Shown here in pieces: positions 6,822 through 27,722 of a DNA stretch of 34,142 bases (position 1 is its first letter; each line of letters begins with the position of its first letter). The notes beneath the pieces were generated by a model. That model had not been told where the DNA came from. It made no database searches and saw only the letters and a program-made list of their open reading frames with translations. This DNA is from Candidatus Competibacteraceae bacterium (GTDB lineage: Bacteria > Pseudomonadota > Gammaproteobacteria > Competibacterales > JAHEDQ01): positions 1-34,142 of the forward strand of contig JAHEDQ010000020.1 of NCBI GenBank assembly GCA_024641125.1, in the 5' to 3' direction. Both the position numbers and the translations under genes were made by a program.

Positions 6822-6823
6822 AT

Positions 6824-9497: not shown

Positions 9498-9549
9498 GGT
9501 GTCTGCTTCCTACCTCAAATGTGAATCGTGTATCGTGCGCCTCAGCGCC

Positions 9550-11432: not shown

Positions 11433-12752
11433 TTACCAGAGATTGCCATAGATATAGCCGGTGGTTGTTGCCATCACTATGACGAGAGAGCAGTAGATAA
11501 CGGTTTTCTGATTTCCAAGAATCGATCTGATTACCAGCATGTTGGGCAGCGACAGCGCCGGCCCCGCCAACAACAATGCCAGTGCTGGACCCTTTCCCAT
11601 CCCGGAACCCAACAATCCTTCCACGATAGGTACTTCAGTAAGCGTGGAGAAATACATAAATGCACCCAGGATTGAAGCGATCCCGGTGGATACGAGAGAA
11701 TTATCACCCACCGCCGCACTGACCCATACAGAGGGTATCAATCCTTCGAAACCTGGCCGCCCCAGCAGCAGACCCGCGATGAACACACCGCCCAGTAACA
11801 ACGGCATAATCTGCTTGGTGAAATCCCAGGTCTGAGCCGCCCATTCCCGATCCGACTCCCTGGTCGTGGCGATAAGCAGAATGCCTATCGCCCCTGCGGC
11901 GAAGGGTAATTCTGGGGCTCCAGGGGCCAGCAGCGCGCTTATGATGATCAGTACGCCCAGTCCGAGCACGGGAAAGGCCGGCCATTGCCATCGGGAAATG
12001 AACAATGCGCCGAGCAGCAGGGCAAGGAGTGAAGTTATCGGCCACTTCCATGTGTAAACCGCCATCCACAAAAGGCTATCGGCAGCGGCCCAATTGGCAA
12101 ATACAAGAATCCCGATCATCAGACTGAAAAAAATCACAACTGTGCCAAGTGGCTTTACCGCCCCGTCTGCTGCGAATCCTCGGCCAGATGCGTCTGCTCT
12201 CGCCATCTCTTCCTTGCGATAAATCAGATGCATGATGGCGCCGATTACGACGGCGAAAAAAATGGCACCGATCCCCCTGGCGATACCCAGTTCTGCCCCC
12301 AGCACCTTGGCCGTTACGACAATTGCCATGATGTTGATAGCAGGCCCGGAATAGAGAAATGCAATGGCTGCTCCCAGACCCGCCCCGCGTTTGTAGATAC
12401 CGCCAAACAGAGGCAGAACCGTGCATGAGCAGACTGCGAGTAAAGTGCCTGATACGGAGGCGACTCCCAGTGCCAGGGGTTTCGATGCCTGCGGTCCGAG
12501 ATAGCGCAGTACGGAACCCTGGCTGATATAGACAGCCATTGCACCGGCTATGATGAATGCAGGGAGCAGGCAGAGGATGACATGCTCCTGGGCATACCAG
12601 TGAGTCAGGCGGACCGCTTCCAGCACCGCATTGTCAAACCGCGTATTACCGGCAGGCAGAAAGTAGAGAATGAGAAAACCCACCGCCATCAACACCATCA
12701 GGCGAACCTGGACGGGGTTTTCCCTGGACAGACTTAGCAGCTTTGTGTACAC
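11433..12752 (-). CDS. ArsP-like permease (UPF0718 / PF03773 family)
   Basis: This is a polytopic inner-membrane permease of 439 residues with about ten hydrophobic helices. The diagnostic segment is VCSCTVLPLFGGIYKRGAGL, with cysteines at 108 and 110. It is followed by AIAFLYSGPAIN, which is repeated in a second-half counterpart (YFSTLTEVPIVEGLLGSGMG). Family members such as ArsP export trivalent organoarsenicals; others have unknown metal-related roles. The start is GTG 12752, with GGGGA about 8 bases upstream. An ArsR-type regulator often accompanies this pair, but none is present here. The neighbouring GntR gene instead belongs to the divergent catabolic operon. The region is visibly AT-richer than its neighbours, which may indicate transfer. 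Confidence 0.83.
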   Translation of the reverse strand: MYTKLLSLSRENPVQVRLMVLMAVGFLILYFLPAGNTRFDNAVLEAVRLTHWYAQEHVILCLLPAFIIAGAMAVYISQGSVLRYLGPQASKPLALGVASVSGTLLAVCSCTVLPLFGGIYKRGAGLGAAIAFLYSGPAINIMAIVVTAKVLGAELGIARGIGAIFFAVVIGAIMHLIYRKEEMARADASGRGFAADGAVKPLGTVVIFFSLMIGILVFANWAAADSLLWMAVYTWKWPITSLLALLLGALFISRWQWPAFPVLGLGVLIIISALLAPGAPELPFAAGAIGILLIATTRESDREWAAQTWDFTKQIMPLLLGGVFIAGLLLGRPGFEGLIPSVWVSAAVGDNSLVSTGIASILGAFMYFSTLTEVPIVEGLLGSGMGKGPALALLLAGPALSLPNMLVIRSILGNQKTVIYCSLVIVMATTTGYIYGNLW

Positions 12753-12944: not shown

Positions 12945-13646
12945 TTACTCCTGGAGCGCCTGTGACATCTGTTCGGAAATCATCAGCAGATGCTCACGCA
13001 TGGTGCCCTGGGCCGCCACGGCATCCCGTTCTCTAAGGGCCGAGACCAGACGCGTGTGTTGTTTATCGTATTGGTTGCGCCGTTCGGGCGTCAGGGTGCG
13101 CTGCTTGAGTTTGTTCCAGGCCGGTTGATTGCGGACGCTGTTGATGGCACGGCATTGGTCGATGAGCAGTTCGTTTCTGGCGGCGCAGATGATCGCCAGG
13201 TGCAGGTCGCCGTCCCAGTGCTCGAACTCCGCCAGTCCCTTGGCCACAAGGCTTTCCCGGAGCGCGGCTTCGATGCGGGTCAGGTCCGCGTCCGATGCGC
13301 GGTGTGCCGCCAGGGCGGCGACCTGGGGTTCGATGATGAGTCGCACTTCCATTATATCGGCGGGACTGGCCGAAGCGATACGGCGCCGAAATGCCATCCC
13401 AGTCGATTCGCGCCCTGCCAGCACAAAGGTGCCCCTTCCCACGCTCCGGTCGATCAGCCCTTGTTCCTCGAGTCGCCGCAGGGCCCGGCGCACCGTATTG
13501 CGCGCTGCCGCGTAGTGGCTTGCCAACTCCCGTTCGGTCGGCATGCGCGCGCCCACGGCCCAATCGCCACCCTTGATGCGCCGTACCAGCGTGTCGAACA
13601 GTTCATCGGCTGATTTCGCCTGTGCCAAGGACGGACTCCGAATCAA
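12945..13646 (-). CDS. GntR-family transcriptional regulator, FadR/FCD subfamily
   Basis: This is a predicted ligand-responsive repressor of 233 residues. The winged helix-turn-helix spans about residues 13-77, with the GntR hallmark MPTERELASHYAAARNTVRR and the wing GRGTFVLAGRE. The C-terminal FCD all-helical ligand domain spans about 95-230, including EVRLIIEPQVAALAAHRAS and the metal-site-like segment DGDLHLAI. FCD regulators usually sense small organic acids. The start is TTG 13646, because an in-frame stop lies six bases upstream; a second TTG six codons later is possible. It is divergent from the catabolic operon. Two ACCAAT hexamers lie 11-26 bases upstream of its start and would allow autoregulation. 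Confidence 0.87.
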   Translation of the reverse strand: MIRSPSLAQAKSADELFDTLVRRIKGGDWAVGARMPTERELASHYAAARNTVRRALRRLEEQGLIDRSVGRGTFVLAGRESTGMAFRRRIASASPADIMEVRLIIEPQVAALAAHRASDADLTRIEAALRESLVAKGLAEFEHWDGDLHLAIICAARNELLIDQCRAINSVRNQPAWNKLKQRTLTPERRNQYDKQHTRLVSALRERDAVAAQGTMREHLLMISEQMSQALQE

Positions 13647-13656
13647 CGCCTACCGC

Positions 13657-13799
13657 ACCAATATGGACCAATTCCGGGATAAGGCAAGCCCGCCGGCGTC
13701 TTCCACAAGCCGCCTGACGGGCGATTTGACAAACCGCAATCCGGTGCCAGACTGGAAACAACAAACAAAGAACCAATCTGCTATTGGTGCAGCATTGGT
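13657..13799. promoter_or_regulatory. Cluster of five ACCAAT/ATTGGT hexamers, candidate GntR operators
   Basis: ACCAAT occurs at 13657-13662 and 13667-13672 beside the regulator start. Near the operon start, ACCAAT is at 13772-13777 and ATTGGT at 13783-13788 and 13794-13799. The last three are spaced exactly 11 bases apart, one helical turn, and end 20 bases before the first structural gene. The cluster position in the divergent promoter region is seen directly; binding by the GntR protein is inferred. Confidence 0.55.
13726..13754 (+). promoter_or_regulatory. Possible sigma-70 promoter of the catabolic operon
   Basis: A perfect -35 hexamer TTGACA lies at 13726-13731. With 16-17 base spacing the -10 would be CAGACT or AGACTG, a poor match. 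The downstream hexamers at 13772-13799 would then sit in the initial transcribed region, a repressor arrangement. Confidence 0.35.
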
Positions 13800-13818
13800 C
13801 CATCGAGAGGATAGTCTT

Positions 13819-14709
13819 GTGAAGCTGGCGACCTTCGTCCACCAAGACGTGGAGCAGGTCGGTCTGGTCGATGTTGCGGACGGCACCGTTACGCCGGTAG
13901 GTCTGCGCGACGTGGATCATAGTCCGACTATGCTGGATCTGGTTCGGGCCGGCGCGGCCCAGACCGACCTTGAGCCGGCTGGTTCGGTCTTGGCGTTGGA
14001 TCGGGTTCAACTGCGTGCGCCCATTCCCAGGCCGATCCGGAACGTTTTCTGCGTCGGCAAGAATTACCACGATCACGCCCGTGAGTTCTCCCGCAGCGGG
14101 TTCGATTCCAGCGCCGCCGGCGGCGAGATTCCCGAATACCCCATTTTTTTTTCCAAGGTCCCGGAATCGGTGGTCGGACCGGCGGATTGCATCCGGTTGG
14201 ATCCCAGGGTCAGCGAAGCGGTGGACTACGAAGTCGAACTGGCGTTGGTGATGGGTCCCGGGGGGCGAAACATTCCCGCTCAAGGCGCCTTCGAACACAT
14301 TTGGGGTTACACCATCATCAACGATGTCACGGCCCGGGATATCCAGGGGCGTCACAAACAATGGCTGCTGGGAAAATCCCAGGATACGTTCTGTCCCATG
14401 GGCCCCTGGATCGTGACCGCCGATGAGTTGGACGCCACCGCGTTGGACGTGTCCACCCATGTCAACGGCGAATTGCGTCAAACGGCCAACACCCGCGACC
14501 TGATCTTTGACATACCCACCATGGTCGCCGCCGCCTCCAACGGCATCACCCTCTTGGCCGGGGACATCATCGCCACCGGCACCCCGGCGGGCGTCGGGAT
14601 CGGGTTCGATCCGCCCCGTTTTCTGCAGGCCGGCGACGTGGTGCGCATGGACATCGAGGGCATCGGCACCATCGAGAACCGGGTCGAGTCCATGGGCGAG
14701 CCCCGGTGA
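13819..14709 (+). CDS. Fumarylacetoacetate hydrolase (FAH) family protein
   Basis: This is a metal-dependent hydrolase or decarboxylase of the FAH superfamily, with 296 residues. The motif GKNYHDH at 80-86 provides the catalytic histidine, H86. Metal ligands are E138 and E140 in VDYEVEL and probably D168 in INDVTARD. The lysine in GKSQDTFCPMGP (K185) and the C-terminal GDIIATGTPAGVGIG loop are also conserved. Family members cleave C-C bonds of beta-dicarbonyl acids or isomerise and decarboxylate them in aromatic-acid degradation. The start is GTG 13819 after GAGAGG at 13804-13809; the longer frame back to 13543 overlaps the GntR gene and is a shadow. It is first in the operon and overlaps the next gene by GTGA. 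The exact substrate is unknown. Confidence 0.87.
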   Translation: MKLATFVHQDVEQVGLVDVADGTVTPVGLRDVDHSPTMLDLVRAGAAQTDLEPAGSVLALDRVQLRAPIPRPIRNVFCVGKNYHDHAREFSRSGFDSSAAGGEIPEYPIFFSKVPESVVGPADCIRLDPRVSEAVDYEVELALVMGPGGRNIPAQGAFEHIWGYTIINDVTARDIQGRHKQWLLGKSQDTFCPMGPWIVTADELDATALDVSTHVNGELRQTANTRDLIFDIPTMVAAASNGITLLAGDIIATGTPAGVGIGFDPPRFLQAGDVVRMDIEGIGTIENRVESMGEPR

Positions 14710-15485
14710 GCAGCCATGTGATCGAGCAGATGGCGGTGGAGGTGGAGGGCGACGGGGACGCGGTGGTGATGATCCACGGGCTGGGCGGCACCTCCAATAC
14801 CTTCAGCCCGCAGATGGCCGTCACCCGCGATCGTTATCGCAGCATTCGCCCGGATCTGCCCTGTTCCGGGCGTTCCGCCAACCACGAGGCGCCCGGCATC
14901 CAGTCTTTCGCCGATCGTGTCGTTCGGGCGATCAACGTACTGGGTGTCAGCCGGGCGTATTTCTTGGGCCACTCCATGGGCACCATCGTGTGTCAGCATA
15001 TCGCCGCCCAGCATCCGAGCCTGGTGAAGGGACTGTTTTTGTGTGGCACTTTGCTGGAGCCGCCCCAGGCTGCGCGCCAGGGGCTGCGGGATCGGGCCAA
15101 GCTGGCCCGGTCGGAAGGCATGGTCGGCATCGCCGATGCGATTGTACAGGTGGCGACCGCCACCGCTACCAAACGAAACAACGCGGTTGCACTGGCCTTC
15201 GTGCGGGAAAGCATTATGCGCCAGTGCCCGGAAGGCTATGCCCGAAGCTGCGAGGCGCTGGCCGAGGCCACTGCGGCGGATCCTCGTCTGATCAGCTGCC
15301 CGGTACTGAGCGTCACCGGGGAAGAGGATGTGGTGGGTCCGCCTTCGGTGTCCCGGCAGCTGGCCGACCAATTGGAGCAGGGGCGGGCGCTGGTGCTGGC
15401 CGGTTGCGGCCACTGGACCACCATCGAGCGTCCGTTGGAAGTCAACGACGCGCTGAAGGCGTTTCTGGCCGGCAATCGGCGCTGA
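14706..15485 (+). CDS. Alpha/beta hydrolase, enol-lactonase-like
   Basis: This is a cytoplasmic alpha/beta-fold hydrolase of 259 residues. The catalytic triad is visible: nucleophile S90 in GHSMG (88-92), acid D208 in TGEEDVVGP, and base H236 in GCGHWTTIERP. The oxyanion-hole segment HGLGG is at 24-28. Overall layout and length resemble PcaD (3-oxoadipate enol-lactonase) or RutD, but specificity cannot be called. The start GTG overlaps the stop of the FAH-family gene (GTGA at 14706-14709), so translation is coupled. With the FAH-family and amidohydrolase proteins it would form a hydrolytic ring- or amide-opening set. Confidence 0.86.
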   Translation: MSSHVIEQMAVEVEGDGDAVVMIHGLGGTSNTFSPQMAVTRDRYRSIRPDLPCSGRSANHEAPGIQSFADRVVRAINVLGVSRAYFLGHSMGTIVCQHIAAQHPSLVKGLFLCGTLLEPPQAARQGLRDRAKLARSEGMVGIADAIVQVATATATKRNNAVALAFVRESIMRQCPEGYARSCEALAEATAADPRLISCPVLSVTGEEDVVGPPSVSRQLADQLEQGRALVLAGCGHWTTIERPLEVNDALKAFLAGNRR

Positions 15486-15524
15486 TTTTCGCAGGCGGCC
15501 ACGCGCCGTCGGGAGTCCACTGAG

Positions 15525-16802
15525 ATGGCCAATATCGTTTTTACCAACGTCCGAATTCTGGATGGCAGCGGCGAGTACCCCTACAGCGGGGAGGTCACCG
15601 TCCAGGGCAATCGCATCCAGCACATCACCCGGGGCTACCGGGCCTCGCCCACCAACGGCCACACCGTCATCGACGGCGCCGGCGCCACCCTGATGCCCGG
15701 TTTGTGCGATGCCCATACCCACTTCAGTTGGAACGACCAACCCAGTCTGGACGCGATTCAGCGCATGCCGCCCGAGGAACACACCCTGTTCAGCGCCCAG
15801 GTTGCCAAGACCCTCCTGGACAGCGGGTTCACCATGTGTGTGGGCGCCGCGGCGGCCAAACCCCGGCTGGACGTGGTGATCCGGAATGCGATCAATTGCG
15901 GACAGATTCCGGGACCGCGCTACCTGGCGAACGGTCAGGAGATCGCGACTCTGGGTGGCCTGGGTGACACCTCGCCACCCCACATCGACGTGCCTGAGCT
16001 CAGCTTCGGAGTGGTGGTGAGCGGTCCTGAGGAGATGCGCCGGGTGGTCCGAACCTTCATCAAATACGGGGTCGATTTGCTGAAATTGAACCTCTCCGGT
16101 GAGGAAATAGCGGGTGTCGGAGCCGAGGAAACACCGATGACCGACGAGGAGACGGCGATGGCCGTTTCCGAGGCGCGCCGCCGCGGCAAGCGGGTCTGTG
16201 CCCACGCCCGCTCCGCCGAGTCGGTGAAAATGTGCGTGCGCCACGGGGTGGACATCATCTACCACGCCAGTTTCGCCGACGAGGAGGCCCTGGACCTGTT
16301 GGAGGCCAACAAGGACAAGCACTTCGTGGCGCCCGGTCTGGCCTGGCTGATTCAGACGTCGCGTCATGCCGAGCCCTGGGGAATCAAGCCGGACTCACCA
16401 CTGGCCATCATGTATCAGCGGGAGCTCGAGGTGGCGGTGGAGACCATGCGCAAAATGCACAAACGCGGGATTCGGGTACTGCCCGGCGGCGACTATGGAT
16501 TCGCCTGGACGCCTCACGGAACCAATGCCCGCGATCTCGAGTACTTCGTCAACATGGTCGGGATGACCCCGATGGAAGCCGTGGTATCGGCCACGCGCAT
16601 GGGGGGAGAGATATTCGGCAAACCCAAGGAACTGGGGCTGCTCAAGGAAGGGTACCTGGCCGATCTGCTGCTGGTGGACGGAGACCCGCTGGCGGACATC
16701 GCCATTTTGCAGGACAAGTCGCGCCTTCTGGCAATCATGAAGGACGGCGAATTCTACAAACAACCGGACGTAACCCCGCAGCGGGCGCGGCTGGCCGTTT
16801 AG
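15525..16802 (+). CDS. Amidohydrolase-superfamily metal-dependent hydrolase
   Basis: This is a TIM-barrel amidohydrolase of 425 residues, resembling imidazolonepropionase- and prolidase-like members. Metal-site residues are in place: H64 and H66 in CDAHTH, K187 in VDLLKLNLSGE (a candidate carboxylated lysine), H227 in VCAHARS, H247 in IIYHASF, and catalytic D323 in PGGDYGF. The N-terminal beta-sandwich begins with NVRILDGSGE, and the C-terminal return strand ends with LADLLLVDGDPL, both standard. No signal peptide is seen. It probably hydrolyses a cyclic amide, imide or dipeptide-like bond. Its TAG stop abuts the MITE-like element that separates it from the transporter genes. Confidence 0.87.
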   Translation: MANIVFTNVRILDGSGEYPYSGEVTVQGNRIQHITRGYRASPTNGHTVIDGAGATLMPGLCDAHTHFSWNDQPSLDAIQRMPPEEHTLFSAQVAKTLLDSGFTMCVGAAAAKPRLDVVIRNAINCGQIPGPRYLANGQEIATLGGLGDTSPPHIDVPELSFGVVVSGPEEMRRVVRTFIKYGVDLLKLNLSGEEIAGVGAEETPMTDEETAMAVSEARRRGKRVCAHARSAESVKMCVRHGVDIIYHASFADEEALDLLEANKDKHFVAPGLAWLIQTSRHAEPWGIKPDSPLAIMYQRELEVAVETMRKMHKRGIRVLPGGDYGFAWTPHGTNARDLEYFVNMVGMTPMEAVVSATRMGGEIFGKPKELGLLKEGYLADLLLVDGDPLADIAILQDKSRLLAIMKDGEFYKQPDVTPQRARLAV

Positions 16803-16962
16803 GGAGCCCCTGATTTACTCGTGAACGTGCATGTTGGGACTCAAATGCGCAGCGTCATGGTTGCAACTCTTGGCAATAGAACAATTATTGCCCGTGATCT
16901 GCGCCTTGAATCTGCACAGTTCCGCCTCCAACCTGCTTGGTCCGGAGTAAATCGGGGGCTCC
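16803..16962. mobile_element. MITE-like inverted-repeat element, 160 bp
   Basis: The arms GGAGCCCCTGATTTACTC (16803-16820) and its reverse complement at 16945-16962 match at 17 of 18 positions. No coding sequence lies between them. The left flank is TTAG (which includes the amidohydrolase stop) and the right flank is CCAG, so no clean target duplication remains. The left 30 bases resemble a second copy of this motif at 31192, which favours a transposon end over a chance hairpin. The element could also act as an intra-operon RNA stem. Confidence 0.55.
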
Positions 16963-16986
16963 CCAGGGGCTCGACGGTCTGATCCG

Positions 16987-17847
16987 GTGAAGCTGTTTCT
17001 GCTGACGCTGCTCAACGGTCTCACCCTTGCGGCGCTGTACTTTCTGGTGGCCAGCGGCTTTACCCTGGTGTTCGGGTTGATGCGCAATGTCAATCTGGCC
17101 CACGGATCGCTCTATCTGCTGGGTGCTTACATCGGCTACGACGTGGCCGATTTCAGCGGTTCCTGGTTTCTGGGGGTGGCCGCGGGTTTCGTTTCAATGG
17201 CGGCTGCCGGCCTGTTGCTGCAGGTTCTGGTGTTCCGGCACATGGAGGGTCAGGATCTGCGACAGACCCTGGTAACCATCGGTATCTCCATCGTGCTGGC
17301 CGATCTCATGCTGGCGATCTGGGGCGGAACCACGTATCAGTTCGAACCACCGGAATGGCTGTATGGGGCCACCCGGATGCCGCTGGTGCGCGCCTATCCA
17401 ACGTATCGGCTCGCCCTTTTGGGCACCGCCGTGGTGATCGGCATTGCCCTGTGGTTGTTTTTGAACCGGACCCGGGTCGGGATGATGATCCGTGCCGGGG
17501 TCGACGACCGTGAAATGCTTTCTGCCACCGGCATCAACGTGCACCTGGTGTTCGCCATCACCTTTGCCATCGGCGCCGGGCTGGCCGGTTTTGCCGGTGT
17601 GGTGGGTGGCACCGCCCTGTCCATCGCACCGGGCGAGGACGTGCGCTACCTTCTGGCCTCCCTTGTGGTGGTGATCGTGGGCGGCATGGGCAGCGTGGCC
17701 GGGGCCGCCATAGGCGCCCTGCTGATTGGCTTGGCGGAGCAGTTCGGCCTGGCTTACTCACCCACCTACGGTGTGGTCTACACCTTTCTGATCATGGTGC
17801 TGGTACTGGCCGTGCGTCCCCAGGGCATCATGGGAAAAAAAGCATGA
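16987..17847 (+). CDS. livH: Branched-chain amino acid-type ABC permease, LivH-like
   Basis: This is an inner-membrane permease of the hydrophobic amino acid uptake (HAAT) family, with 286 residues. It opens with MKLFLLTLLNGLTLAALYFL and has about eight helices. Typical LivH segments are FGLMRNVNLAHGSLYLLGAY near the N-terminus and ASLVVVIVGGMGSVAGAAIG near the C-terminus. The start is GTG 16987 with no strong Shine-Dalgarno, because the upstream sequence is the MITE-like element. Proteins of this family import branched-chain amino acids but also urea, amides and aromatic acids. The last 4 bases overlap the LivM-like gene (ATGA). The symbol denotes family position only. Confidence 0.88.
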   Translation: MKLFLLTLLNGLTLAALYFLVASGFTLVFGLMRNVNLAHGSLYLLGAYIGYDVADFSGSWFLGVAAGFVSMAAAGLLLQVLVFRHMEGQDLRQTLVTIGISIVLADLMLAIWGGTTYQFEPPEWLYGATRMPLVRAYPTYRLALLGTAVVIGIALWLFLNRTRVGMMIRAGVDDREMLSATGINVHLVFAITFAIGAGLAGFAGVVGGTALSIAPGEDVRYLLASLVVVIVGGMGSVAGAAIGALLIGLAEQFGLAYSPTYGVVYTFLIMVLVLAVRPQGIMGKKA

Positions 17848-18863
17848 ATCCGGTCCGGGCGGGCGTGCAGGGAAAGACCACAGCAGTTGGCGTTTACCCG
17901 GGGTATGCGGTGCTTTTGATCCTGTTGCTGGCCTATCCCTGGGTCGCCAGCGGGTTCTGGACGGTTCAGGTTGGCGCCTACAGCCTGATACTCGGGATAA
18001 TTTCTCTGTCGCTGATGTTCCTGGCCGGCTACGGTGGAGTGGTTTCGCTGGCACAACTGACCATTGCCGGTTGTGCCGGGTACATGCTCGCCATCCACGG
18101 GGTCAACAGCGCCGGGCTCGGTCTGGGATGGCCCTGGTGGGCGGCGGTACCGATGGCCATTGTCATCGCCACCCTGATGGCCACACTGATCGGTTTGATT
18201 TCAGTGCGAACCGAGGGGATCTACACGATCATGATCACCCTTGCCATCGCTGTGGCCTTTTTCTACTTCACCCGCCAGAACTATACGGTGTTCAACGGAT
18301 TTACCGGCTTTGCCGGTGTGGAGCCGCCGCCCCTGTTCGGAATCAACTGGCGCGACGCCATGCCGTTCTACTACCTCTGTCTCACGGTGGCGGTGCTGTG
18401 TTACAGCCTGGTGCTGTACCTGGGGCGATCCAACTTCGGCATTGCCATGCAGGCGATCCGCGACAATCCACGGCGCATGTCCACCCTCGGTTTCAGTGTC
18501 AACACCCACCGGGTGCTGGCTTACACCATTGCTGGATTCGTGGCGGCCCTGGGCGGGGTGCTGTCGGTCTGGTTCAACGGGCGCATCTCACCCGGGTCCA
18601 TCTCCACCGGGCCGGTCATCGATATCCTCATTATTGCGGTGGTCGGCGGCCTGAGTCGGCCCATCGGCCCGTTTCTCGGTGCACTGGTGTTCGTGCTGCT
18701 GGAGAATTTTGCCATCGATCTCATAGACCGCGACCGGTTCAACACGGTCATCGGCGTTGCGTTTCTGGCCATGGTGTTGTTCTCACCCGATGGTCTGCTG
18801 GGTTTATGGGAAAAACTCAAGCCGCGGCTCGTGCCGCGCAGGGAGGGCTCGGCAGGGACGTAG
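17844..18863 (+). CDS. livM: Branched-chain amino acid-type ABC permease, LivM-like
   Basis: This is the second HAAT-family permease, 339 residues with about nine to ten helices. The LivM signature regions are FLAGYGGVVSLAQLTIAGCA near residue 50 and IAMQAIRDNPRRMSTLGFS around residue 200. The latter matches the family pattern for the loop contacting the ATPases. VVGGLSRPIGPFLGALVFVL follows in the C-terminal half. ATG 17844 overlaps the stop of the LivH-like gene in an ATGA arrangement. The C-terminal tail is basic (KLKPRLVPRREG). Confidence 0.88.
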   Translation: MNPVRAGVQGKTTAVGVYPGYAVLLILLLAYPWVASGFWTVQVGAYSLILGIISLSLMFLAGYGGVVSLAQLTIAGCAGYMLAIHGVNSAGLGLGWPWWAAVPMAIVIATLMATLIGLISVRTEGIYTIMITLAIAVAFFYFTRQNYTVFNGFTGFAGVEPPPLFGINWRDAMPFYYLCLTVAVLCYSLVLYLGRSNFGIAMQAIRDNPRRMSTLGFSVNTHRVLAYTIAGFVAALGGVLSVWFNGRISPGSISTGPVIDILIIAVVGGLSRPIGPFLGALVFVLLENFAIDLIDRDRFNTVIGVAFLAMVLFSPDGLLGLWEKLKPRLVPRREGSAGT

Positions 18864-18925
18864 TTTTATCAACCAGTGTCCACGGACGTCACCGCAGACC
18901 AGAGCATTGCGGGACGCCGTTGGAT

Positions 18926-18932
18926 AAGGAGG
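18926..18932 (+). promoter_or_regulatory. Strong ribosome binding site of the livK-like gene
   Basis: AAGGAGG lies 8 bases before GTG 18941, the strongest Shine-Dalgarno in the operon. This fits the need for excess binding protein and fixes the start inside a much longer open frame. Confidence 0.65.
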
Positions 18933-18940
18933 ATCGAGTA

Positions 18941-20200
18941 GTGAGTATCGAAAAGCGAACTGTACCGGGCGTTAAACGCAGCCTGCTAGCCGCGGCTGTA
19001 CTGGCAGTATCGGCCAGCGCCGGGGCGGCGGACGGGGTCAAGATGGGGGCCCTCGCCACCCTGGAGGGGGCCTTCACCGTGCTCGGCGAGGACGGCATGC
19101 GCGGCGTGAAAATGGCCCTGGCGGAGCGGGACAACAAGGCCTGCGGCCAGGAAATCGAACTGATTACCGGCTCATCCGACGCCTCGCCGGACAGCGCCAT
19201 CCGTGCGGCGCGGAAGCTGGTGGAGCAGGACAAGGTCGAGATTCTGATTGGACCCCTGTCCGGTTCAGAGGGACTCGCGGTCAAGGATTACGCCAAGACC
19301 CAACCCCAGGTCACATTCCTCAACGGCACCTCCGCGGCTCAGGACACCACCCTGCGTGATCCGGCGGACAACTTCTTCCGCTGGACCACCGACGGTGCCC
19401 AATGGCAGGCCGGCCTCGGCACCTATGCCTATGACGAAAAGGGCTATAAGACCGTCGTCGCCATCGCCGAGGACTACTCCTTCCCTTACACCCAGGTCAT
19501 GGGTTTTATGCTGGAGTTCTGCGAGAAGGGTGGCAAGGTTACAGACAAGTTCTGGGTACCCATCGGCAACAAGGACTATTCCACCATTGTCGCGTCGATC
19601 CCGGATGACATCGACGCCATCTATGTGGCTCTGGGGGGCGCCGATGCGGTCAATTTCCTCACCCAGTACGAGCAGGCCGGTGGCGACAAGCCGCTGATCG
19701 GCGGCTCTATCACCGTGGATCAGACGGTGATGGGCTCCAAGGGCCGTCGCAAGAGCTATGTGGTGGGCACACCCAGCGCCGGGCCGATCGCCGACTCCTG
19801 GGACGATCCGAAATGGCAGGCATTCGTAACGACTTATCAGGAAACCTATCCAGACGGTCTGCCCTCACCGTCATTGTTCGCACATGGCTATTACGTCAAT
19901 ACCCTGGCGGCTTTGACTGCGCTGGAGGCGGTGGACTGCGACCTGTCTGATGATCAGGCCAAGTTTCGTGCGGCCATGTCCAGCCTGGAACTTGAAACGC
20001 CCACCGGGATGGTGACCCTGGATGCCAATCGTCAGGCCGTGGCGGACATCTTCCTCACCGAGGTGGCCGAAGCCGATGACGGGACCTTGTACAACAAGGT
20101 GGTGAAAGTCATCCCTCAGGTGCCCCAGACCATGGGCATGGACCCTGAGGCTTTTCTGGCGCTGGGTCCGGTCGGACGGGACAACCCGGAGTGCAAATGA
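18941..20200 (+). CDS. livK: Periplasmic substrate-binding protein of the Liv-type transporter
   Basis: This is the receptor of the HAAT transporter, 419 residues before processing. A signal peptide is visible: basic region around VPGVKRS, hydrophobic LLAAAVLAVSA, and probable cleavage after SAGAA near residue 30. The mature protein has the Peripla_BP_6 type-I fold pattern, with GALATLEGAFTVLGEDGMRG, then SSDASPDSAIRAARKLVEQD and VEILIGPLSGSEGLAVKDY. The start is GTG 18941 with AAGGAGG 8 bases upstream. The open frame extends back to 18071 in a different frame of livM and is not coding there. The ligand is unknown; the linked hydrolases suggest an amide or cyclic organic acid rather than leucine. 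Confidence 0.88.
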   Translation: MSIEKRTVPGVKRSLLAAAVLAVSASAGAADGVKMGALATLEGAFTVLGEDGMRGVKMALAERDNKACGQEIELITGSSDASPDSAIRAARKLVEQDKVEILIGPLSGSEGLAVKDYAKTQPQVTFLNGTSAAQDTTLRDPADNFFRWTTDGAQWQAGLGTYAYDEKGYKTVVAIAEDYSFPYTQVMGFMLEFCEKGGKVTDKFWVPIGNKDYSTIVASIPDDIDAIYVALGGADAVNFLTQYEQAGGDKPLIGGSITVDQTVMGSKGRRKSYVVGTPSAGPIADSWDDPKWQAFVTTYQETYPDGLPSPSLFAHGYYVNTLAALTALEAVDCDLSDDQAKFRAAMSSLELETPTGMVTLDANRQAVADIFLTEVAEADDGTLYNKVVKVIPQVPQTMGMDPEAFLALGPVGRDNPECK

Positions 20201-20218
20201 TCGAAAGCTGGGCATGAC

Positions 20219-21001
20219 GTGAGCGAATCGGCTCACAGAATCGCCCACGCAAATGCGGCTCATGCCCTCATTTTGGAGGGCGTGAGCCGGCATTTTGGCG
20301 CGCTGGTGGCGTTGGACGCGATCGACCTGCGGATTCGGGCCGGTGAGCGGCGCGCCGTCCTGGGCGCCAACGGCGCCGGCAAAACCACTTTGTTCAACTG
20401 CATCACCGGGGATTTTCCCCCAACGTCCGGTCGGATACTGTTTTACGGTGAGGAAATCACACGTTTTGCACCCCATGAGCGTATCCGTCGCGGTCTGCGG
20501 CGGACCTATCAGAACTCGCTGCTGTTTCCGAGTCTTTCGGTACTGGACAATCTTTATCTGGCCGCGCGGGGCGTCACCCGTCGGCGTCTGAGTCTGCTGC
20601 GGCCCGGGCCGGAGGATGCGGCGCAGGAAAGCGCCCGGGAACTGGCGCACCTGGTGCACCTGGATCACCTGGCGGACCAGCCGGTGTCCGAACTTGCCCA
20701 TGGGCAGCAGCGTCAGCTGGAGATTGGCATGGCCCTGGCCGGTGCGCCCCGGTTCATTCTGTTCGACGAGCCTGCCGCGGGGCTGTCCCCGGCCGAGCGC
20801 CGTGAACTGGTGGCCATAGTCGAGGCGCTGCCGAAGCACATCGGCTACATCATCATCGAACACGATCTGGATGTGGCGCTGCGCCTGGCCGATTACGTCA
20901 CCGTCATGAACAACGGTGCGCTCCTGAAGGAGGGCACACCGGAGGAGATTCAGTCGGATCCGGACGTACAGAGGATTTACCTGGGAGAGCAGCATGGATG
21001 A
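20219..21001 (+). CDS. livG: Liv-type ABC transporter ATP-binding protein, LivG-like
   Basis: This is an ATPase of the HAAT transporter, with 260 residues. Walker [10 protein letters not shown] is at 49-57, the Q-loop is in [10 protein letters not shown] (about 94-103), and the signature reads [10 protein letters not shown] (159-168), the usual LivG variation of [14 protein letters not shown] is at 183-191 and the switch histidine is H215 in IIIEHDLD. The first 18 residues are an extra polar, Ala/His-rich leader. The start GTG 20219 lies within a perfect GTGAGC-N6-GCTCAC inverted repeat that may tune initiation. The last 8 bases overlap the following fusion gene. Confidence 0.87.
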
Positions 21002-23225
21002 GGTGGCCCCATCCCCGCCAATGCTGGAGGTGCGGGACCTGCAGGTGTACTACGGTCGCGCCCATGCCCTGCAGGGGGTCAATCTGACGCTTCAGCAGGG
21101 GGTGGTGTCGGTGGTGGGCCGCAACGGCATGGGCAAGACCACGCTGTGCAATACCGTGATGGGCCTAATCCCGGCCCGGAGCGGAAGCATCCGCCTGGCC
21201 GGTGAGGACATACTCGGGCTCGATCCCAATCGCATTGTGCGCCGTGGAGTGGGTTATGTGCCCCAGGGTCGGCGGGTATGGCCCTCGCTGACCGTCGACG
21301 AGCACCTGAAAGTGGCGTTGCGGGGTGCGGAGGGCGCCTGGTCCATCGAACGCATCTACCAGACTTTCCCACGGCTGGCCGAGCGGCGGCGCAACGGCGG
21401 CGGTCAGCTTTCCGGCGGCGAGCAGCAGATGCTGGCCATAAGCCGGGCTCTGCTGGGCAATCCGCGTCTACTGATCATGGATGAACCCACCGAGGGTCTG
21501 GCGCCGGTCATCGTGCAGCAGGTATCGGAAATGTTGCGCACACTGGCCGCCGACGGTGATATTTCCGTCCTGCTGATCGAACAGAATCTGGGTGTGGCCA
21601 CTTCGGCGGCGAACCGGGTCGCGGTCATGGTCAACGGGCGCGTCGTTCATGAGCTTCCCGCCGCGGAGTTGGCGCGAAACCTCCCGCTGCAGCAGAAACT
21701 GCTGGGGGTCCAGGCGCAGGATGACGAAATCGACGCGGTGGCAATCGACAGCGCGGAAGCGCCCAAGGCCCCGGGACGGGTGTTTCTGGTTCGGCGGGCA
21801 CGGCACGATTCCGAGCAGATCCCGGGTCAGGGCGGGTTCAGCACCAATCGAGCGCCGACCCGATGGTCTCAGACCACCCCAAGCCACGGCTACGGATCGC
21901 AAACCGATGATCACGACCCGGTTCGGACCGCGGCTGCCACGGAGCCGTCATCCGAACACATGCCAATGCCATCCATACCGGTGTCCAGTCTGGTCGGGCG
22001 GGCTGCCTACGTGGTCGGAACCTTTGACACGAAGGGGCGCGAACTGGGGTTTCTACGGACCTGTCTGGAGCGGCGCGGTCTGCGCGTTGTGACAGTCGAC
22101 CTGAGTACCTCGCGCCAGCCTTCGCCGGCGGATGTTGGACCGGGGGAGGTGGCCCGTTGCCACCCGAAGGGCGTGTCCGCTGTATTCACCGGCGATCGGG
22201 GCAGCGCGGTCACCGCCATGGCGGCGGCCTTCGAACGCTTCGTGGCCGGACGCCGCGACCTTGCCGGCATCATATCGGCCGGCGGTTCCGGCGGCACCGC
22301 GTTGGCCACGCCCGCCATGCGCGCTCTGCCGGTGGGGGTTCCGAAGGTCATGGTTTCCACCGTGGCCTCGGGCAACGTCAAGGACTACGTCGGCCCGTCG
22401 GATATTTGCATGATGTATTCTGTGACCGACGTGTCCGGGATCAATCGGATTTCCCAGCGGGTCCTGTCCAACGCGGCCCATGCCCTGGCCGGCATGGTTT
22501 CCAACGCCCTCAGCGAGATCAGCGGCACACGCCCTGCCATCGGCCTGACCATGTTTGGTGTGACCACCCCCTGTGTGCAGGCAGTGAGTCGCGCCCTGGA
22601 GCAGCAGTTCGACTGCCTGGTATTCCACGCCACCGGGACCGGCGGGCAGTCCATGGAAAAACTGGTGGATTCCGGGCTTCTGGCGGGGGTAATTGACGCC
22701 ACAACCACCGAGGTGTGCGATCACCTGGTGGGGGGCGTATTCAGCGCGGGTGAAGACCGCCTGGGCGCGGTGATCCGAACCGGCATCCCTTATGTAGGGG
22801 CCTGCGGGGCCTTGGATATGGTGAACTGGGGCGCCCGGGAAACCGTTCCGGAGCGTTTCCAGGGTCGCAATCTCTACATACACAACCCGCAGGTGACCCT
22901 GATGCGGACCACCGTCGAGGAAAACACCCGCATCGGCCGTTGGATCGGTGAGCGCCTGAATCGAATGCCCGGACCGGTGCGATTTCTCCTGCCCGAGGGG
23001 GGCGTGTCGCTGCTGGATGCGCCTGGGCAACCGTTCCATGATCCGGAGGCGGATGCCGCGCTGTTCCGTTCGCTCGAGGACACGGTTCATCAGAGCGACT
23101 CGCGCCAACTCATTCGACTTCCCTGCAATATCAACGATCCCGCCTTCGCCGACGCGCTGGTGCAACAGTTTCTGGGCGTTTTTTCCGGGTCAGATCAAAA
23201 AGGATGGTCCCATGCCACGATTTGA
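20994..23225 (+). CDS. LivF-like ABC ATPase fused to a Tm-1-like (UPF0261) ATP-binding domain
   Basis: This is a 743-residue two-domain protein in one continuous frame. Residues 1-240 are a complete LivF-type ATPase: Walker [10 protein letters not shown] at 42-50, Q-loop in [14 protein letters not shown], signature LSGGEQQ at 139-145, and Walker [12 protein letters not shown] at 159-169. Residues about 241-335 are a low-complexity polar linker rich in Ala, Ser, Pro and Asp. Residues about 336-735 are a full Tm-1-like domain. It opens with the family block [20 protein letters not shown] and includes [35 protein letters not shown] and [15 protein letters not shown]. LivG needs this LivF half as its partner, so the transporter is tied physically to the Tm-1-like domain. 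That domain family binds ATP; its bacterial role is unknown. The 3' end overlaps the next gene by 14 bases. Confidence 0.88.
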
Positions 23226-24045
23226 GCGCAGTGCGCTGCTCGACAAGTTCAATGCCATGATTCAACGGGGCGAGCCCATCATCGGCGGCGGCGCCGGTAC
23301 CGGGTTGTCAGCCAAGTGCGAGGAAGCTGGCGGGATCGACCTGATCGTGATCTACAATTCCGGCCGTTACCGAATGGCGGGCCGCGGTTCCCTGGCCGGT
23401 TTGATGGCCTATGGCAACGCCAACGACATCGTGGTGGAAATGGCACGGGAGGTTCTGCCGGTGGTGGAAAAGACGCCGGTGCTCGCCGGCGTCAACGGCA
23501 CCGATCCGTTTATGCTCACCGATCATTTCCTGGACCAGCTCAAGGCGCTGGGCTTTTCCGGCGTCCAGAATTTTCCCACCGTGGGACTGATCGACGGCAC
23601 CTTCCGCGCCAACCTGGAGGAAACCGGTATGGGCTACGGACTCGAGGTGGATATGATCGCCGCTGCCCATGCTCACGACATGCTGACCACGCCCTATGTG
23701 TTTTCCGAAGCGGACGCCCGTGCCATGGCCGGGGCGGGGGCCGACATTATTGTCTGTCATATGGGCTTGACCACGGGAGGCAGCATCGGCGCCGAGACCG
23801 CCTTGACCCTGGAGGGCTGTGTGCCGCAGATCCGCGCCTGGGCCGCTGCCGCCCGCAGCGTGCGTCAGGACGTGATCGTATTGTGCCATGGCGGACCCAT
23901 CGCCATGCCCGCCGACGCCGAATACATCCTCTCCGAGTGCCCCGAATGCAACGGGTTCTATGGCGCTTCGAGTATGGAGCGACTGCCGACGGAGCGGGCC
24001 CTCACGGAACAGACTCGAACCTTCAAAAACATCACACGCGGCTAG
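23212..24045 (+). CDS. PEP-hydrolase-like TIM-barrel protein (TIM-br_sig_trns family)
   Basis: This 277-residue protein is predicted to be a TIM barrel of the phosphoenolpyruvate hydrolase/PF09370 family. The diagnostic N-terminal block is visible: [19 protein letters not shown] (23-41), then [20 protein letters not shown] (43-62). Further conserved segments are [20 protein letters not shown] and [21 protein letters not shown] 23212 is chosen because AGGA lies 7 bases upstream and the block above starts soon after; the gene overlaps the end of the fusion gene by 14 bases, so the two are coupled. In the plant Tm-1 protein this barrel is the C-terminal half and UPF0261 the N-terminal half, so here the two are encoded in the same order as neighbours. 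Reaction and substrate are not established. Confidence 0.85.
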
Positions 24046-24084
24046 CCCGGGACCGGGCCGGAATCTGCGGCGGAGGATATGCAT

Positions 24085-25785
24085 ATGTCCGGAGCAACAT
24101 TCGGCGCCATCATCGGCACTTTGATCATCCTGGCCATTCTGGTGGCGATCGCGGTCTATCTCATGAACTGGCTGTATCGGCGTTCCTCCAAGGACATGGC
24201 ATTCGTGCGCACCGGATTGGGTGGCGAGAAGGTGGTTCTGAACGGGGGCGCCTTCGTGCTGCCCATCGTCCACGACACCACACCGGTGAATATGAACACC
24301 CTGCGCCTGGAGGTGAGCCGGGGTCGCGAGTCGGCTCTGATCACCAAGAACCGGATGCGGGTGGATGTGGTGGCCGAGTTCTACGTCCGCGTTCAGGCAA
24401 CCACCGAGACCATTGCCGCTGCCGCCCAGACCCTGGGCAGCCGCACCACGCAGCCCGATTCGCTGCGCGAGCTTCTGGAGGGCAAGTTTGTCGACGCCCT
24501 GCGTTCGGTGGCGGCGGAGATGACCATGGAAGAGATGCATGAACAACGCGGCAATTACGTGCGGCGGGTGCGGGAGGCGGTGGCACAGGATCTCACCAAC
24601 AACGGACTGGAACTGGAAGCGGTTTCCCTCACCGGTCTGGACCAGACCGACATGCAGTACTTCAACCCCTCCAACGCTTTTGACGCCGAGGGTTTGACAC
24701 GTCTCACCGAGGAGATTGAGCAGCGCAAGAAAAGCCGGAACGACATCGAGCAGGACACCATGATCCAGATTCGAAATAAGAACCTGGAGGCGGAGAAACA
24801 GGCGCTGGAGATCGATCGGGACAGCGAGTTCGCGCGTCTGGAACAAGAGCGGGAAGTGGAAATCCGGCGCGCCACACAGCGAGCTGAACTGGCCCGCGAA
24901 CGGGCAATGAAGGAGCGGGAGTCGGAACAGGCCAGGATCGAGACCCAGCAGGAGCTGGATCGCAGCAAGATCGCCAGCGAGCGCGCCGTGGACGAGGCCC
25001 GGATCGGTCGCGAACGGGAACTGCAGCGACTGGAAGTGGAGCGGCGCAAGGCCCTGGAACTGGAGGAGCAAGGCCGGGCCATTGCCATCGCGGAAAAATC
25101 CCGCGAGCAATCCGAGGCCCAGGCGGCAGCCGAGCTGGCGCGGGCCAAGGCGGTGGCGGCCGAGGAGAGCGTGTTCTCGGTGCGCGAGGTGGAGGCGGCG
25201 GAGCGCAAGAAACGCATCGAAGTGATTGCCGCGGAACAGGAGGCCGAGCGGGATGGCATACGGGTGCGGCGCGCCGCCGAGGCGCACAAGGCTGCCGCCC
25301 TGGATCGGGCGGATGCGCGCCGTGCCGAAGCCGAGGGCGAAGCGGAGGCGGAGAAAATCGGCGCGCTCGCCGCCCGCCTGCGCCATGAAATCGATGCCGA
25401 AGGCGCACGACAGATGAACGAGGCGCACAACGTTCTGACCCCCGAGGCACGGGCGTCGAACGCCCGTCTGCGTCTGATCGACAAGTTGGAAGCCATTATT
25501 CGGGAAAGCGTCAAACCCATGGAGAAGATCGAGGGCATCAAGATTCTGCAGGTCGACGGACTGGGCGGTGGCGGCGGTGTCCAGGGCGGACCACAAGGCG
25601 GCGGAAGTTTCGCCGACAACCTGGTGAACAGCGCCTTGCGCTATCGCGCCCAGGCGCCCCTGGTGGATTCCCTGCTCAAGGAAGTGGGCCTGACCCCTTC
25701 GGACATCAGCCGCTATGTTGAACCCTTCACGGAGACCGAAACCGGTGTCGAACACGACCGGCCCAAGGATGGATCGGGGGGCTAG
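24085..25785 (+). CDS. Flotillin-like SPFH/band-7 membrane protein
   Basis: This is a predicted inner-membrane scaffold protein of 566 residues. A single N-terminal helix lies at about 6-30 (IIGTLIILAILVAIAVYL). The SPFH domain covers about 35-200, with KDMAFVRTGLGGEKVVLNGG at its start. A very long charged coiled coil, rich in Glu, Arg, Ala and Gln, spans about 205-430. A C-terminal Gly-rich stretch (GGGGVQGGPQGGG) precedes a short tail. The layout matches flotillin/YqiK proteins that form membrane microdomains. ATG 24085 is preferred because GGAGG at 24072-24076 is then 8 bases away; ATG 24079 would leave only 2. No NfeD-type partner gene lies next to it. Its place inside a transporter operon suggests it organises that transporter, which is inference. 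Confidence 0.87.
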   Translation: MSGATFGAIIGTLIILAILVAIAVYLMNWLYRRSSKDMAFVRTGLGGEKVVLNGGAFVLPIVHDTTPVNMNTLRLEVSRGRESALITKNRMRVDVVAEFYVRVQATTETIAAAAQTLGSRTTQPDSLRELLEGKFVDALRSVAAEMTMEEMHEQRGNYVRRVREAVAQDLTNNGLELEAVSLTGLDQTDMQYFNPSNAFDAEGLTRLTEEIEQRKKSRNDIEQDTMIQIRNKNLEAEKQALEIDRDSEFARLEQEREVEIRRATQRAELARERAMKERESEQARIETQQELDRSKIASERAVDEARIGRERELQRLEVERRKALELEEQGRAIAIAEKSREQSEAQAAAELARAKAVAAEESVFSVREVEAAERKKRIEVIAAEQEAERDGIRVRRAAEAHKAAALDRADARRAEAEGEAEAEKIGALAARLRHEIDAEGARQMNEAHNVLTPEARASNARLRLIDKLEAIIRESVKPMEKIEGIKILQVDGLGGGGGVQGGPQGGGSFADNLVNSALRYRAQAPLVDSLLKEVGLTPSDISRYVEPFTETETGVEHDRPKDGSGG

Positions 25786-25790
25786 CGGGC

Positions 25791-26231
25791 GTGGTCAAGG
25801 TCTACACCTCAAGCGTGATCAACGCTCCGGCTGATCGGGTTTGGGCCCAGGTCCGAGATTTCAACGGCCTGCCCACCTGGCACCCCTTGATCGCCGAGAG
25901 CAGCATCGAAGGGGGTGATCCGCCGGATCGGGTGGGTTGCGTGCGCAATTTCACCCTGCGGGACGGCGGCCGAATTCGCGAGCGGCTACTGGCGCTGTCG
26001 GATTTCGATTTTCTCTGCGTCTACGCCATTCTGGAGTCGCCCATGGGGGTAGAGGACTATGTGGCGACGCTCAAACTGACGCCCATCACCGACGGTGACC
26101 GGACATTCGCAGAGTGGTCTGCCGAGTTCGAGTGCGCGCCGCCCAGGGAGCAGGAACTGGCCGAACAGATTGGACAGGGCGTGTTTCAAGGCGGGTTCGC
26201 GGCCCTCAATACGCTGATGACACGACGCTAG
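25791..26231 (+). CDS. SRPBCC (START-like) family protein
   Basis: This is a 146-residue protein of the SRPBCC/polyketide-cyclase fold, which forms a deep hydrophobic ligand pocket. The family pattern begins SSVINAPADRVWAQVRDFNG, continues with TWHPLIAESSIEGG and VGCVRNFTLRDGGRIRERL, and ends with a C-terminal helix (QEQLAEQIGQGVFQG-like; exact residues QELAEQIGQGVFQGGF). The start is GTG 25791, 5 bases after the flotillin-like gene stop. It is clearly paralogous to the N-terminal domain of the next protein: both share RVW..(L/V)RDFN, WHP..AES.IE and VGCVR.F.L.DG. Ligand or reaction is unknown. Confidence 0.84.
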   Translation: MVKVYTSSVINAPADRVWAQVRDFNGLPTWHPLIAESSIEGGDPPDRVGCVRNFTLRDGGRIRERLLALSDFDFLCVYAILESPMGVEDYVATLKLTPITDGDRTFAEWSAEFECAPPREQELAEQIGQGVFQGGFAALNTLMTRR

Positions 26232-26249
26232 CGATTCGGTCAAGACACT

Positions 26250-27722
26250 ATGGTGGAAGTGGTTCGCAGCACCGTCGTTCCCGTACCCATAGACCGGGTC
26301 TGGCCGGTGTTACGGGATTTCAACAGCCACAAGGACTGGCACCCGGCGGTGGCGGAAAGCCGGATCGAGAACGGCTTGCGATCAGACGAAGTGGGCTGTG
26401 TCCGCCGATTCAGCCTGGCCGACGGCGCCGAACTGCGGGAGCAGTTGCTTCGGTTGTCGGATGATGACCACAGCTACACCTACTGCATCCTCGATTCCCC
26501 CATCCCGCTGTATGGCTATGTGGCCACCGTCACCCTCAAGCCGGTGACCGACACCGATGCCACTTTTTGGGAATGGCGTTCCAGCTTTCGCACCCCACCC
26601 GGGCAGGAGAATCAGCTTGCCCTGTTGGTGGGGGAGTCCATATACGAAGCGGCGTTTGTCGCCCTGACGACGCGTTTGACCCATGGCTCGATCCGTTCCA
26701 GGGGCGGAGCGACCCCCCAAGTCCACGCCAAGTCATCGGCCAATCGGGTATGCAGCGGACTGGTGCTGCAGGCATTTGGCGGCCCGGAGAACCTGAAATG
26801 GGGGCCGGTTTCGGCCCCGCCCCCGGGTCCCGGCGAGGTTCGGATCGAACACAAGGCGATCGGGCTCAACTATATCGATGTCTACTGCCGGACCGGATAC
26901 TTCCGCCTGGCAGAGCCACCCTGTCCACTGGGGATGGAAGCCTGCGGAGTGGTGACCGATGTGGGCGAGGGGGTCGATGGCATCCTGCTGGGGGACCGAG
27001 TGGCCTATGCCTGTGCACCGGTGGGCGCCTATGTAGAGCATCGCACCATGCCGGCGGCGCTGCTGGTGGTGGTGCCCGACGAGATCAGTTCCGAACAGGC
27101 CGCAGCAGTCATGCTCAAGGGGATGACGGCGGAGTTCCTGCTCCATCGCGTGCACCGGGTGCGGGACGGTGATGTGGTGCTGATACACGCCGCGGCCGGG
27201 GGTGTCGGCCAGCTGTTGTGCCAATGGGCTCGGGCCATGGGTGCCGAGGTCATCGGTACCGTGGGTTCGCGGGACAAGGTTCCAGTAGCGCGGGATAATG
27301 GCTGCATCCACACCATCGTTTACACCGAGGAGAATTTCGTTCAGCGTGTGGTCGAGATCACCGCCGGCCGAGGTGTCGATGTGGTCTACGACGCGGTGGG
27401 CCGGGACGCGTTTATGCACTCCTATGAAGCCTTGGCCGAGCGTGGCCACCTGGTCAGCTATGGTCAGGCCTCGGGTCCCATCGAACCCATCGACATTGCC
27501 GCGTTCGCCGCCAAGTCGGCCACCGTCTCCAGGCCCAATTTCGGTCACTATACCTCAACCCCGCAGCAGGTCCGTGCCATCACCGACCGACTGTTCCGGG
27601 CTTTGCGGCAGGGCATTCTGCGGGTGGACATCGGTCAGCGGTTTGCGCTGAGCGAGGGAGCCGAGGCCCATCGGGCACTGGAGTCCCGTCACACCCGGGG
27701 TTCGACCGTGCTGATTCCTTGA
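26250..27722 (+). CDS. SRPBCC domain fused to a zinc-independent quinone oxidoreductase
   Basis: This 490-residue protein combines two domains in one frame. Residues 1-148 are an SRPBCC domain paralogous to the preceding gene product (RVWPVLRDFNSHKDWHPAV). Residues about 149-166 are a short linker. Residues about 168-490 are an MDR-superfamily NADPH:quinone oxidoreductase. That part has the substrate-domain segment IGLNYIDVYCRTGYF (204-218), GDRVAYA (248-254) and the nucleotide motif AAAGGVGQ (314-321). The structural-zinc cysteine cluster of alcohol dehydrogenases is absent. One polypeptide could bind a hydrophobic intermediate and reduce an enone or quinone-like bond. It is the last gene of the operon; no clear terminator is seen in the 124 bases that follow. 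Confidence 0.86.
   Translation: MVEVVRSTVVPVPIDRVWPVLRDFNSHKDWHPAVAESRIENGLRSDEVGCVRRFSLADGAELREQLLRLSDDDHSYTYCILDSPIPLYGYVATVTLKPVTDTDATFWEWRSSFRTPPGQENQLALLVGESIYEAAFVALTTRLTHGSIRSRGGATPQVHAKSSANRVCSGLVLQAFGGPENLKWGPVSAPPPGPGEVRIEHKAIGLNYIDVYCRTGYFRLAEPPCPLGMEACGVVTDVGEGVDGILLGDRVAYACAPVGAYVEHRTMPAALLVVVPDEISSEQAAAVMLKGMTAEFLLHRVHRVRDGDVVLIHAAAGGVGQLLCQWARAMGAEVIGTVGSRDKVPVARDNGCIHTIVYTEENFVQRVVEITAGRGVDVVYDAVGRDAFMHSYEALAERGHLVSYGQASGPIEPIDIAAFAAKSATVSRPNFGHYTSTPQQVRAITDRLFRALRQGILRVDIGQRFALSEGAEAHRALESRHTRGSTVLIP

Follow-up and report, generated by a model that had tools for sequence, protein, structure and literature searches.

A widely conserved bacterial gene cluster that joins a LivF::UPF0261 importer fusion to a PEP-hydrolase-like barrel, a flotillin, and SRPBCC proteins

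Do thirteen neighboring genes on a contig of a Candidatus Competibacteraceae bacterium form one system and, if so, what might that system do? The genes lie at 12945 to 27722 of contig JAHEDQ010000020.1 (positions 1 to 34,142; this whole stretch of 34,142 nucleotides is called the window here), where a GntR/FCD regulator gene on the minus strand diverges from twelve genes that all run on the plus strand. A first-pass annotation, made from the sequence, had described this layout, named every gene, and reported a set that matches no recognized pathway. Open reading frames (ORFs) and Pfam domain matches, the basis of our own naming, bore out each name, and no published description of the cluster was found in the literature searched, which did not include the paper on the kinase MarK; according to PMC13101465, that paper surveyed related clusters in many genomes. 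Comparison of gene neighborhoods showed that the thirteen genes are a genuine cluster, conserved widely among bacteria, and it supports reading them as a single conserved unit for uptake and catabolism that includes a regulator and a membrane-scaffold gene.

A Tm-1 profile was scanned over contigs from the genomes of 84,980 species, and the neighbors of the 80 best loci (numbered with L below), together with annotated plasmid loci, were labeled. Cluster types were defined by the presence of LivF, the Tm-1-like unit (Tm1), and a flotillin, plus either a quinone oxidoreductase (QOR; type A) or CoxL (type B). Because loci were picked by Tm-1 similarity and types by content, the resulting numbers are counts among the best matches, not frequencies. 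Co-occurrence of these families elsewhere, on which the first-pass annotation had staked its grouping, was found in 36 type A and 23 type B loci. Type A clusters, to which the cluster of the window belongs, consist of LivHMKG, a LivF::Tm-1 fusion, a phosphoenolpyruvate (PEP)-hydrolase-like barrel (PEPH), flotillin, SRPBCC, an SRPBCC::QOR fusion, and usually hydrolases, while type B clusters keep the core and have a molybdenum hydroxylase in place of QOR and hydrolases. The LivF::Tm1 fusion was present in all 36 type A loci and 22 of the 23 type B loci (the remaining one was left undecided by the gap limit), and SRPBCC::QOR was fused in 36 of 36 type A loci. The order LivG-LivF-Tm1-PEPH-flotillin-SRPBCC was kept in 57 of the 59 typed loci; of the other two, one sits on a cut contig (L042) and one, from Mesorhizobium, lacks PEPH (L074). 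The 36 type A loci with both fusions span the Alpha- and Betaproteobacteria and one Rokubacteria metagenome-assembled genome, and the A/B label switches once on a Tm1+PEPH tree, a quick tree with several open forks.

As an independent anchor, the SRPBCC::QOR protein was searched for in 399 evenly drawn random genomes of the phylum. The fusion occurred in three, each time inside the cluster; PEPH was missing from the cluster in two of the three (L133 and L134), and each of these genomes has one strong PEPH elsewhere. The order kept in 57 of 59 loci and the cluster found around all three independently anchored fusions show that the grouping is not due to chance. The boundaries recur as well. Three loci (L008, L009, and L011) begin at the same divergent GntR gene, whose product is 43 to 53% identical to that of the window, and close with SRPBCC::QOR; L052 and L079 likewise start with GntR genes. 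In Variovorax paradoxus VAI-C, which we take to be an acyl-homoserine-lactone degrader, the cluster (L002, CP063167.1) is carried by a large replicon.

What does the importer at the center of the cluster look like? All five parts of a Liv/HAAT importer (LivKHMGF) are present in standard form: two BPD_transp_2 permeases (LivH type, 16987 to 17847, and LivM type, 17844 to 18863; both PF02653), a Peripla_BP_6 solute-binding protein (LivK type, 18941 to 20200; PF13458), and two ATP-binding cassette (ABC) ATPases, LivG (20219 to 21001; PF00005 and PF12399) and LivF, both with intact Walker A sites. Unlike known Liv/HAAT importers, LivF here (20994 to 23225; PF00005, PF06792, and PF23189) bears a C-terminal UPF0261 (Tm-1) unit of about 400 residues. 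The 743-residue fusion comprises the ATPase at about 1 to 240, a linker of ~95 residues, and N- and C-terminal UPF0261 domains at 338 to 504 and 513 to 728, which belong to the family at 215 bits (PF06792) and 319 bits (PF23189) against a cut-off of 27. Records of Variovorax and Yoonia label the fusion "ABC transporter permease", which is misleading, since its ORF encodes an ATPase joined to UPF0261.

The UPF0261 unit is homologous to plant Tm-1 (3wry; E = 1e-100) and to Saro_1862 (9mpy), and Foldseek placed it at a template modeling (TM) score of 0.88 to 3wrx. Saro_1862 of Novosphingobium aromaticivorans is the only bacterial homologue of the domain with a known structure, and PDB entry 9MPY holds it with bound acetovanillone; the alignment to the window protein (E = 1e-60 across 347 residues) shares conserved motifs along its length. 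Among the papers searched, none from before 2025 was found to give a function for UPF0261. Acetovanillone catabolism in N. aromaticivorans begins with a single-component kinase, MarK (PMC13101465), which is probably Saro_1862. By this homology the unit on LivF is probably an ATP-dependent small-molecule kinase, with the same two-domain fold family and motifs as MarK/Saro_1862; it differs from them in being fused to an importer ATPase, in being closer to plant Tm-1, and in its pairing with a PEPH barrel within a cluster that has neither carboxylase nor phosphatase. The first-pass annotation had given the Tm-1 pair further, late steps. That placement was not supported: with a UPF0261 protein now resembling a phenol/ketone kinase, and with the importer's ATPase as the fusion partner here, the domain more likely acts early, in a step tied to import.

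A related layout occurs in Thermomicrobium roseum, where LivHMKGF, Tm1, and PEPH are unfused and a dikinase in two parts comes after them. Its ATP-grasp protein matches HpeI (9GOJ) at 2e-58, a match that is not specific, as PEP synthase scores slightly higher, and its partner is rifampin-phosphotransferase-like; two-component phenolic dikinases are laid out in this way (PMC12167813). The same cluster has a molybdenum enzyme nearest to 4-hydroxybenzoyl-CoA reductase, below cut-off.

PEPH (23212 to 24045) is a TIM barrel and a clear member of PF09370 (E = 1e-132; 441 bits against a cut-off of 33.8), matching Mll9387 (2p10) at 1e-124; by superfamily we take it to be PEP-mutase-like. It is a conserved partner of UPF0261, and co-evolution of UPF0261 with the TIM-barrel family has been reported earlier (PMC5028733). 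The plant Tm-1-like protein shows the same partnership, with a UPF0261 part about 45% identical to ours, but plants fuse UPF0261 to the barrel, whereas the window fuses it to LivF and keeps the barrel separate. The pair also has other settings. Tm1-PEPH-SRPBCC triads were found without a Liv importer (L006, L036, L038, L051, L061, L070, L087, L091, and L097), which makes SRPBCC a recurrent third partner. Conjugative plasmids of Serratia (L089) and Vibrio (L093) carry a minimal unit of a divergent TetR gene, a Tm-1-like gene, and PEPH, with neither transporter nor pathway obvious beside it, and an Ewingella plasmid (L088) carries the bare pair. A diverged pair, with PEPH 40% identical, lies on a Bradyrhizobium guangzhouense plasmid (L094) next to genes for a FAD-dependent oxidoreductase and pyruvate kinase.

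Which compound could such a system take up? The structure nearest to LivK is 4zpj, followed by the 4ey3/4evq group, presumably aromatic-acid binders. Upstream of the importer lie three hydrolase genes. The FAH-family hydrolase/decarboxylase (13819 to 14709; PF01557, E = 2e-72) has the metal-site motifs DYEVE and NDVTARD, 8sky and 6iym as nearest solved homologues, and a 2,4-didehydro-3-deoxy-L-rhamnonate hydrolase as top NCBIfam match, below its cut-off. The PcaD-like alpha/beta hydrolase (ABH; 14706 to 15485; PF00561) belongs to the enol-lactonase family, retains GHSMG, GEEDV, and GCGHW motifs, and matches 3-oxoadipate enol-lactonase (2xua) at 3e-22. FAH and PcaD-like enzymes are families used in aromatic pathways. 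The amidohydrolase (AHY; 15525 to 16802; PF01979) has the HTH, K, H, H, D metal-ligand motifs and is related to Xaa-Pro dipeptidase (2qs8), the Arg carboxypeptidase Cc2672 (3mtw), and ochratoxinase (4c5y). The AHY motifs and carboxypeptidase/ochratoxinase likeness, with the enol-lactonase likeness of ABH, make hydrolysis of an amide or lactone plausible.

Of the type A loci, 28 reached far enough upstream; all of these have ABH and an amidohydrolase, and 21 have a same-direction FAH gene. Betaproteobacterial clusters (e.g., that of V. paradoxus VAI-C) have one amidohydrolase more and, in many cases, a VOC protein. In four alphaproteobacterial loci (L046, L053, L069, and L077) the FAH-ABH-AHY module follows QOR rather than preceding LivH, and type B lacks it; being separable, the module is not core. 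The suggestion of the first-pass annotation, import of a cyclic or amide-containing organic acid with hydrolytic opening and further steps by the Tm-1 pair, is partly supported: the conserved uptake-catabolism unit stands and amide or lactone hydrolysis is plausible, but late action of the Tm-1 pair is not supported.

Downstream of PEPH lies the flotillin gene (24079 to 25785), whose product has SPFH (PF01145) and Flot (PF15975) domains and a hydrophobic N terminus with a membrane helix. These features are shared with bacterial flotillin operons (FloT/YqiK), although here the flotillin gene has PEPH and SRPBCC as its neighbors within a catabolic operon and no adjoining NfeD-type partner, and it scores 63 bits against the FloT equivalog cut-off of 700 (NF058507). 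None of the 59 typed clusters lacks flotillin, partly because the types were defined by it. A cluster-specific flotillin subfamily was considered and rejected, as homologues of 56 to 62% identity occur in sampled genomes without a detected SRPBCC::QOR fusion.

The SRPBCC protein that follows (25791 to 26231; PF10604) was modeled at a pLDDT (predicted local distance difference test) of 95. Its top Foldseek matches are 7tmu and 3cnw (the uncharacterized bacterial YPO0625 and XoxI), then PYL receptors, so that the model probably has a ligand-binding, PYR/PYL-like helix-grip fold. Relatives of two plant families, Tm-1-like and PYL-like, therewith share one operon here; for both, a bacterial origin of the plant family has been reported or proposed. 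The last gene (26250 to 27722; PF10604, PF08240, and PF00107) fuses SRPBCC to an NADPH:quinone-reductase-like domain with the nucleotide-binding motif AAAGGVG. Type B clusters (e.g., L003, L004, L029, L035, L037, L047, L048, and L086) have neither hydrolases nor QOR and carry CoxM/S/L-like subunits, usually together with MoxR and an AraC regulator; about half also have a VWA protein. The CoxL-like ORF of L003, which is possibly incomplete, scored 138 to 153 bits against CoxL equivalog cut-offs of 950 to 991, and xanthine dehydrogenase models outscored the CoxL models, yet below their cut-off.

How might the cluster be regulated? The GntR/FCD gene (12945 to 13646, minus strand; PF00392 and PF07729) starts at TTG 13646 or 13628, and its best family matches are LldR, UxuR, NanR, GlcC, and PdhR, all below cut-off. 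The 172 base pairs (bp) between it and FAH contain ACCAATCTGCTATTGGT at 13772 to 13788, the sole exact match to ACCAAT-N5-ATTGGT in the window, where 0.04 matches with up to one mismatch are expected. Extra half-sites lie at 13657, 13667, and 13794, and 5 of the 14 ACCAAT/ATTGGT half-sites of the window fall between 13657 and 13799. In the equivalent gap, L008, L011, L074, and L079 have paired half-sites, L009 and L052 have unpaired half-sites, and L069 has none. This recurrent, operator-like site is probably an operator, and its half-sites resemble those of PdhR/LldR. Junctions from FAH onward measure −4 (GTGA), +39, +184, −4 (ATGA), +77, +18, −8, −14, +33, +5, and +18 bp, including every overlap noted in the first-pass annotation. 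A second promoter would most naturally lie in the 184-bp AHY-LivH gap; scans for sigma-70 promoters and terminators gave no convincing site.

Taken with Saro_1862 and its acetovanillone, MarK suggests import of an aromatic compound, apparently of plant type, with phosphorylation at the importer. We tentatively propose, at a little under an even chance, a GntR-linked system that scavenges an organic acid of aromatic or phenolic ketone type, perhaps as an amide or lactone conjugate. Also in favor of the proposal are the conserved cluster with both fusions, the independently anchored fusions, the T. roseum layout, the LivK relatives, the FAH and PcaD-like families, and the PEPH genes present elsewhere in the two genomes whose clusters lack one. 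In the scheme that we infer, LivK would bind the compound and LivHM with LivG/LivF would bring it in; the UPF0261 unit on LivF would phosphorylate it at the cytoplasmic face of the importer and so trap it; PEPH would work on the phosphorylated or enolic product; AHY, ABH, and FAH would strip conjugates and open the skeleton; SRPBCC::QOR would reduce an enone or quinone held by SRPBCC domains; and flotillin may collect the parts at the membrane. The catabolic logic, phosphorylation first and processing afterwards, would be that of the Hpe/Acv hydroxyphenylethanone pathways. The kinase, however, is of another family, the cluster has its own Liv importer, and the Hpe/Acv two-component dikinase (HpeHI), three-part carboxylase, and phosphatase are not among the 13 genes. 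The lack of carboxylase and phosphatase weighs against our proposal, as do three further points: MarK is equated with Saro_1862 by inference; the UPF0261 unit is closer to plant Tm-1 (about 45% identity) than to Saro_1862 (about 33%), so that its specificity may differ; and rhizobial Tm1-PEPH pairs adjoin sugar and BMP-type ABC transporters, so that the pair is not aromatic-only.

These last pairs lead to a somewhat unlikely but substantial alternative, in which one catabolic unit serves a non-aromatic substrate (such as a sugar acid or cyclitol), Tm1-PEPH acts on 2-oxo or enol acids in general as a two-protein enzyme, and the fused importer only channels substrate. Standalone pairs beside sugar ABC, UgpC, and BMP transporters and Gfo/Idh/MocA oxidoreductases would fit it, as would the rhamnonate-type FAH match below cut-off; acetovanillone bound to Saro_1862, the closeness of LivK to the 4ey3/4evq group, the molybdenum hydroxylase swapped in for type B, and the phenolic-type dikinase layout in T. 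roseum speak for an aromatic compound instead. It is improbable that the SRPBCC proteins are CoxG-like quinone carriers in a membrane redox module (QOR or molybdenum hydroxylase) organized by flotillin, with import secondary. SRPBCC is indeed followed by QOR in type A and by CoxM/S/L-like subunits in type B, and is fused to a quinone-reductase-like domain, but it matches no CoxG family (only Polyketide_cyc2/Polyketide_cyc in Pfam), its sequence and fold fit the PYR/PYL-like group, type B scores miss the carbon monoxide dehydrogenase equivalog cut-offs, and SRPBCC accompanies Tm1-PEPH also where no adjoining oxidoreductase was labeled.

Still less probable is that the cluster serves defense against a toxic aromatic and not nutrition, with Tm1-PEPH mainly a detoxification pair; the TetR-linked pairs of the Serratia and Vibrio conjugative plasmids, without obvious transporter or pathway, would suit this role, but a high-affinity Liv-type importer with its solute-binding protein and several hydrolases points to nutrient use. 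Unrelated adjacent operons grouped by chance, for which the 184-bp gap ahead of LivH and the hydrolase module found on either side could be cited, are refuted by the co-occurrence and hardly credible given order, fusions, and boundaries conserved over deep divergence. Beyond the proposed scavenging of an aromatic ketone-type acid, we consider it conceivable, though unlikely, that an importer ATPase bearing a small-molecule kinase couples uptake physically to phosphorylation, as an ABC-type counterpart of group translocation, within a flotillin-organized membrane metabolon with an exchangeable redox end of quinone-reductase or molybdenum-hydroxylase type.

Where did the window's copy come from? 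A search of 39 further genomes from this order gave a single match, weak and partial, so the cluster may have been acquired by horizontal transfer or the contig may be misbinned. The G+C content of the cluster genes (0.61 to 0.66) is similar to that of the rest of the contig, and the single UPF0261 match and single flotillin match of the genome both lie in the cluster. A phage-type tyrosine integrase gene near the contig end (32431 to 33108, minus strand) is compatible with horizontal acquisition. A second, ordinary uptake set on the minus strand (4250 to 10725) encodes a dipeptide-type ABC importer, a family 5 solute-binding protein, and an S58 (DmpA-like) peptidase; between the two sets lies an ArsP-type permease gene (11433 to 12752, minus strand) of lower G+C content (0.55).

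The plant protein Tm-1 blocks a virus. The cluster offers a concrete, testable catabolic setting for two families that plants also have and whose function long stayed obscure, UPF0261/Tm-1 and PEP-hydrolase. If LivF::UPF0261 is a kinase, import-coupled phosphorylation by an ABC system would be directly observable. Bacterial flotillin would gain a specific set of metabolic clients if the proposed scheme is true, and aromatic ketones of the lignin type, for which few pathways are known, would gain an uptake-linked one.

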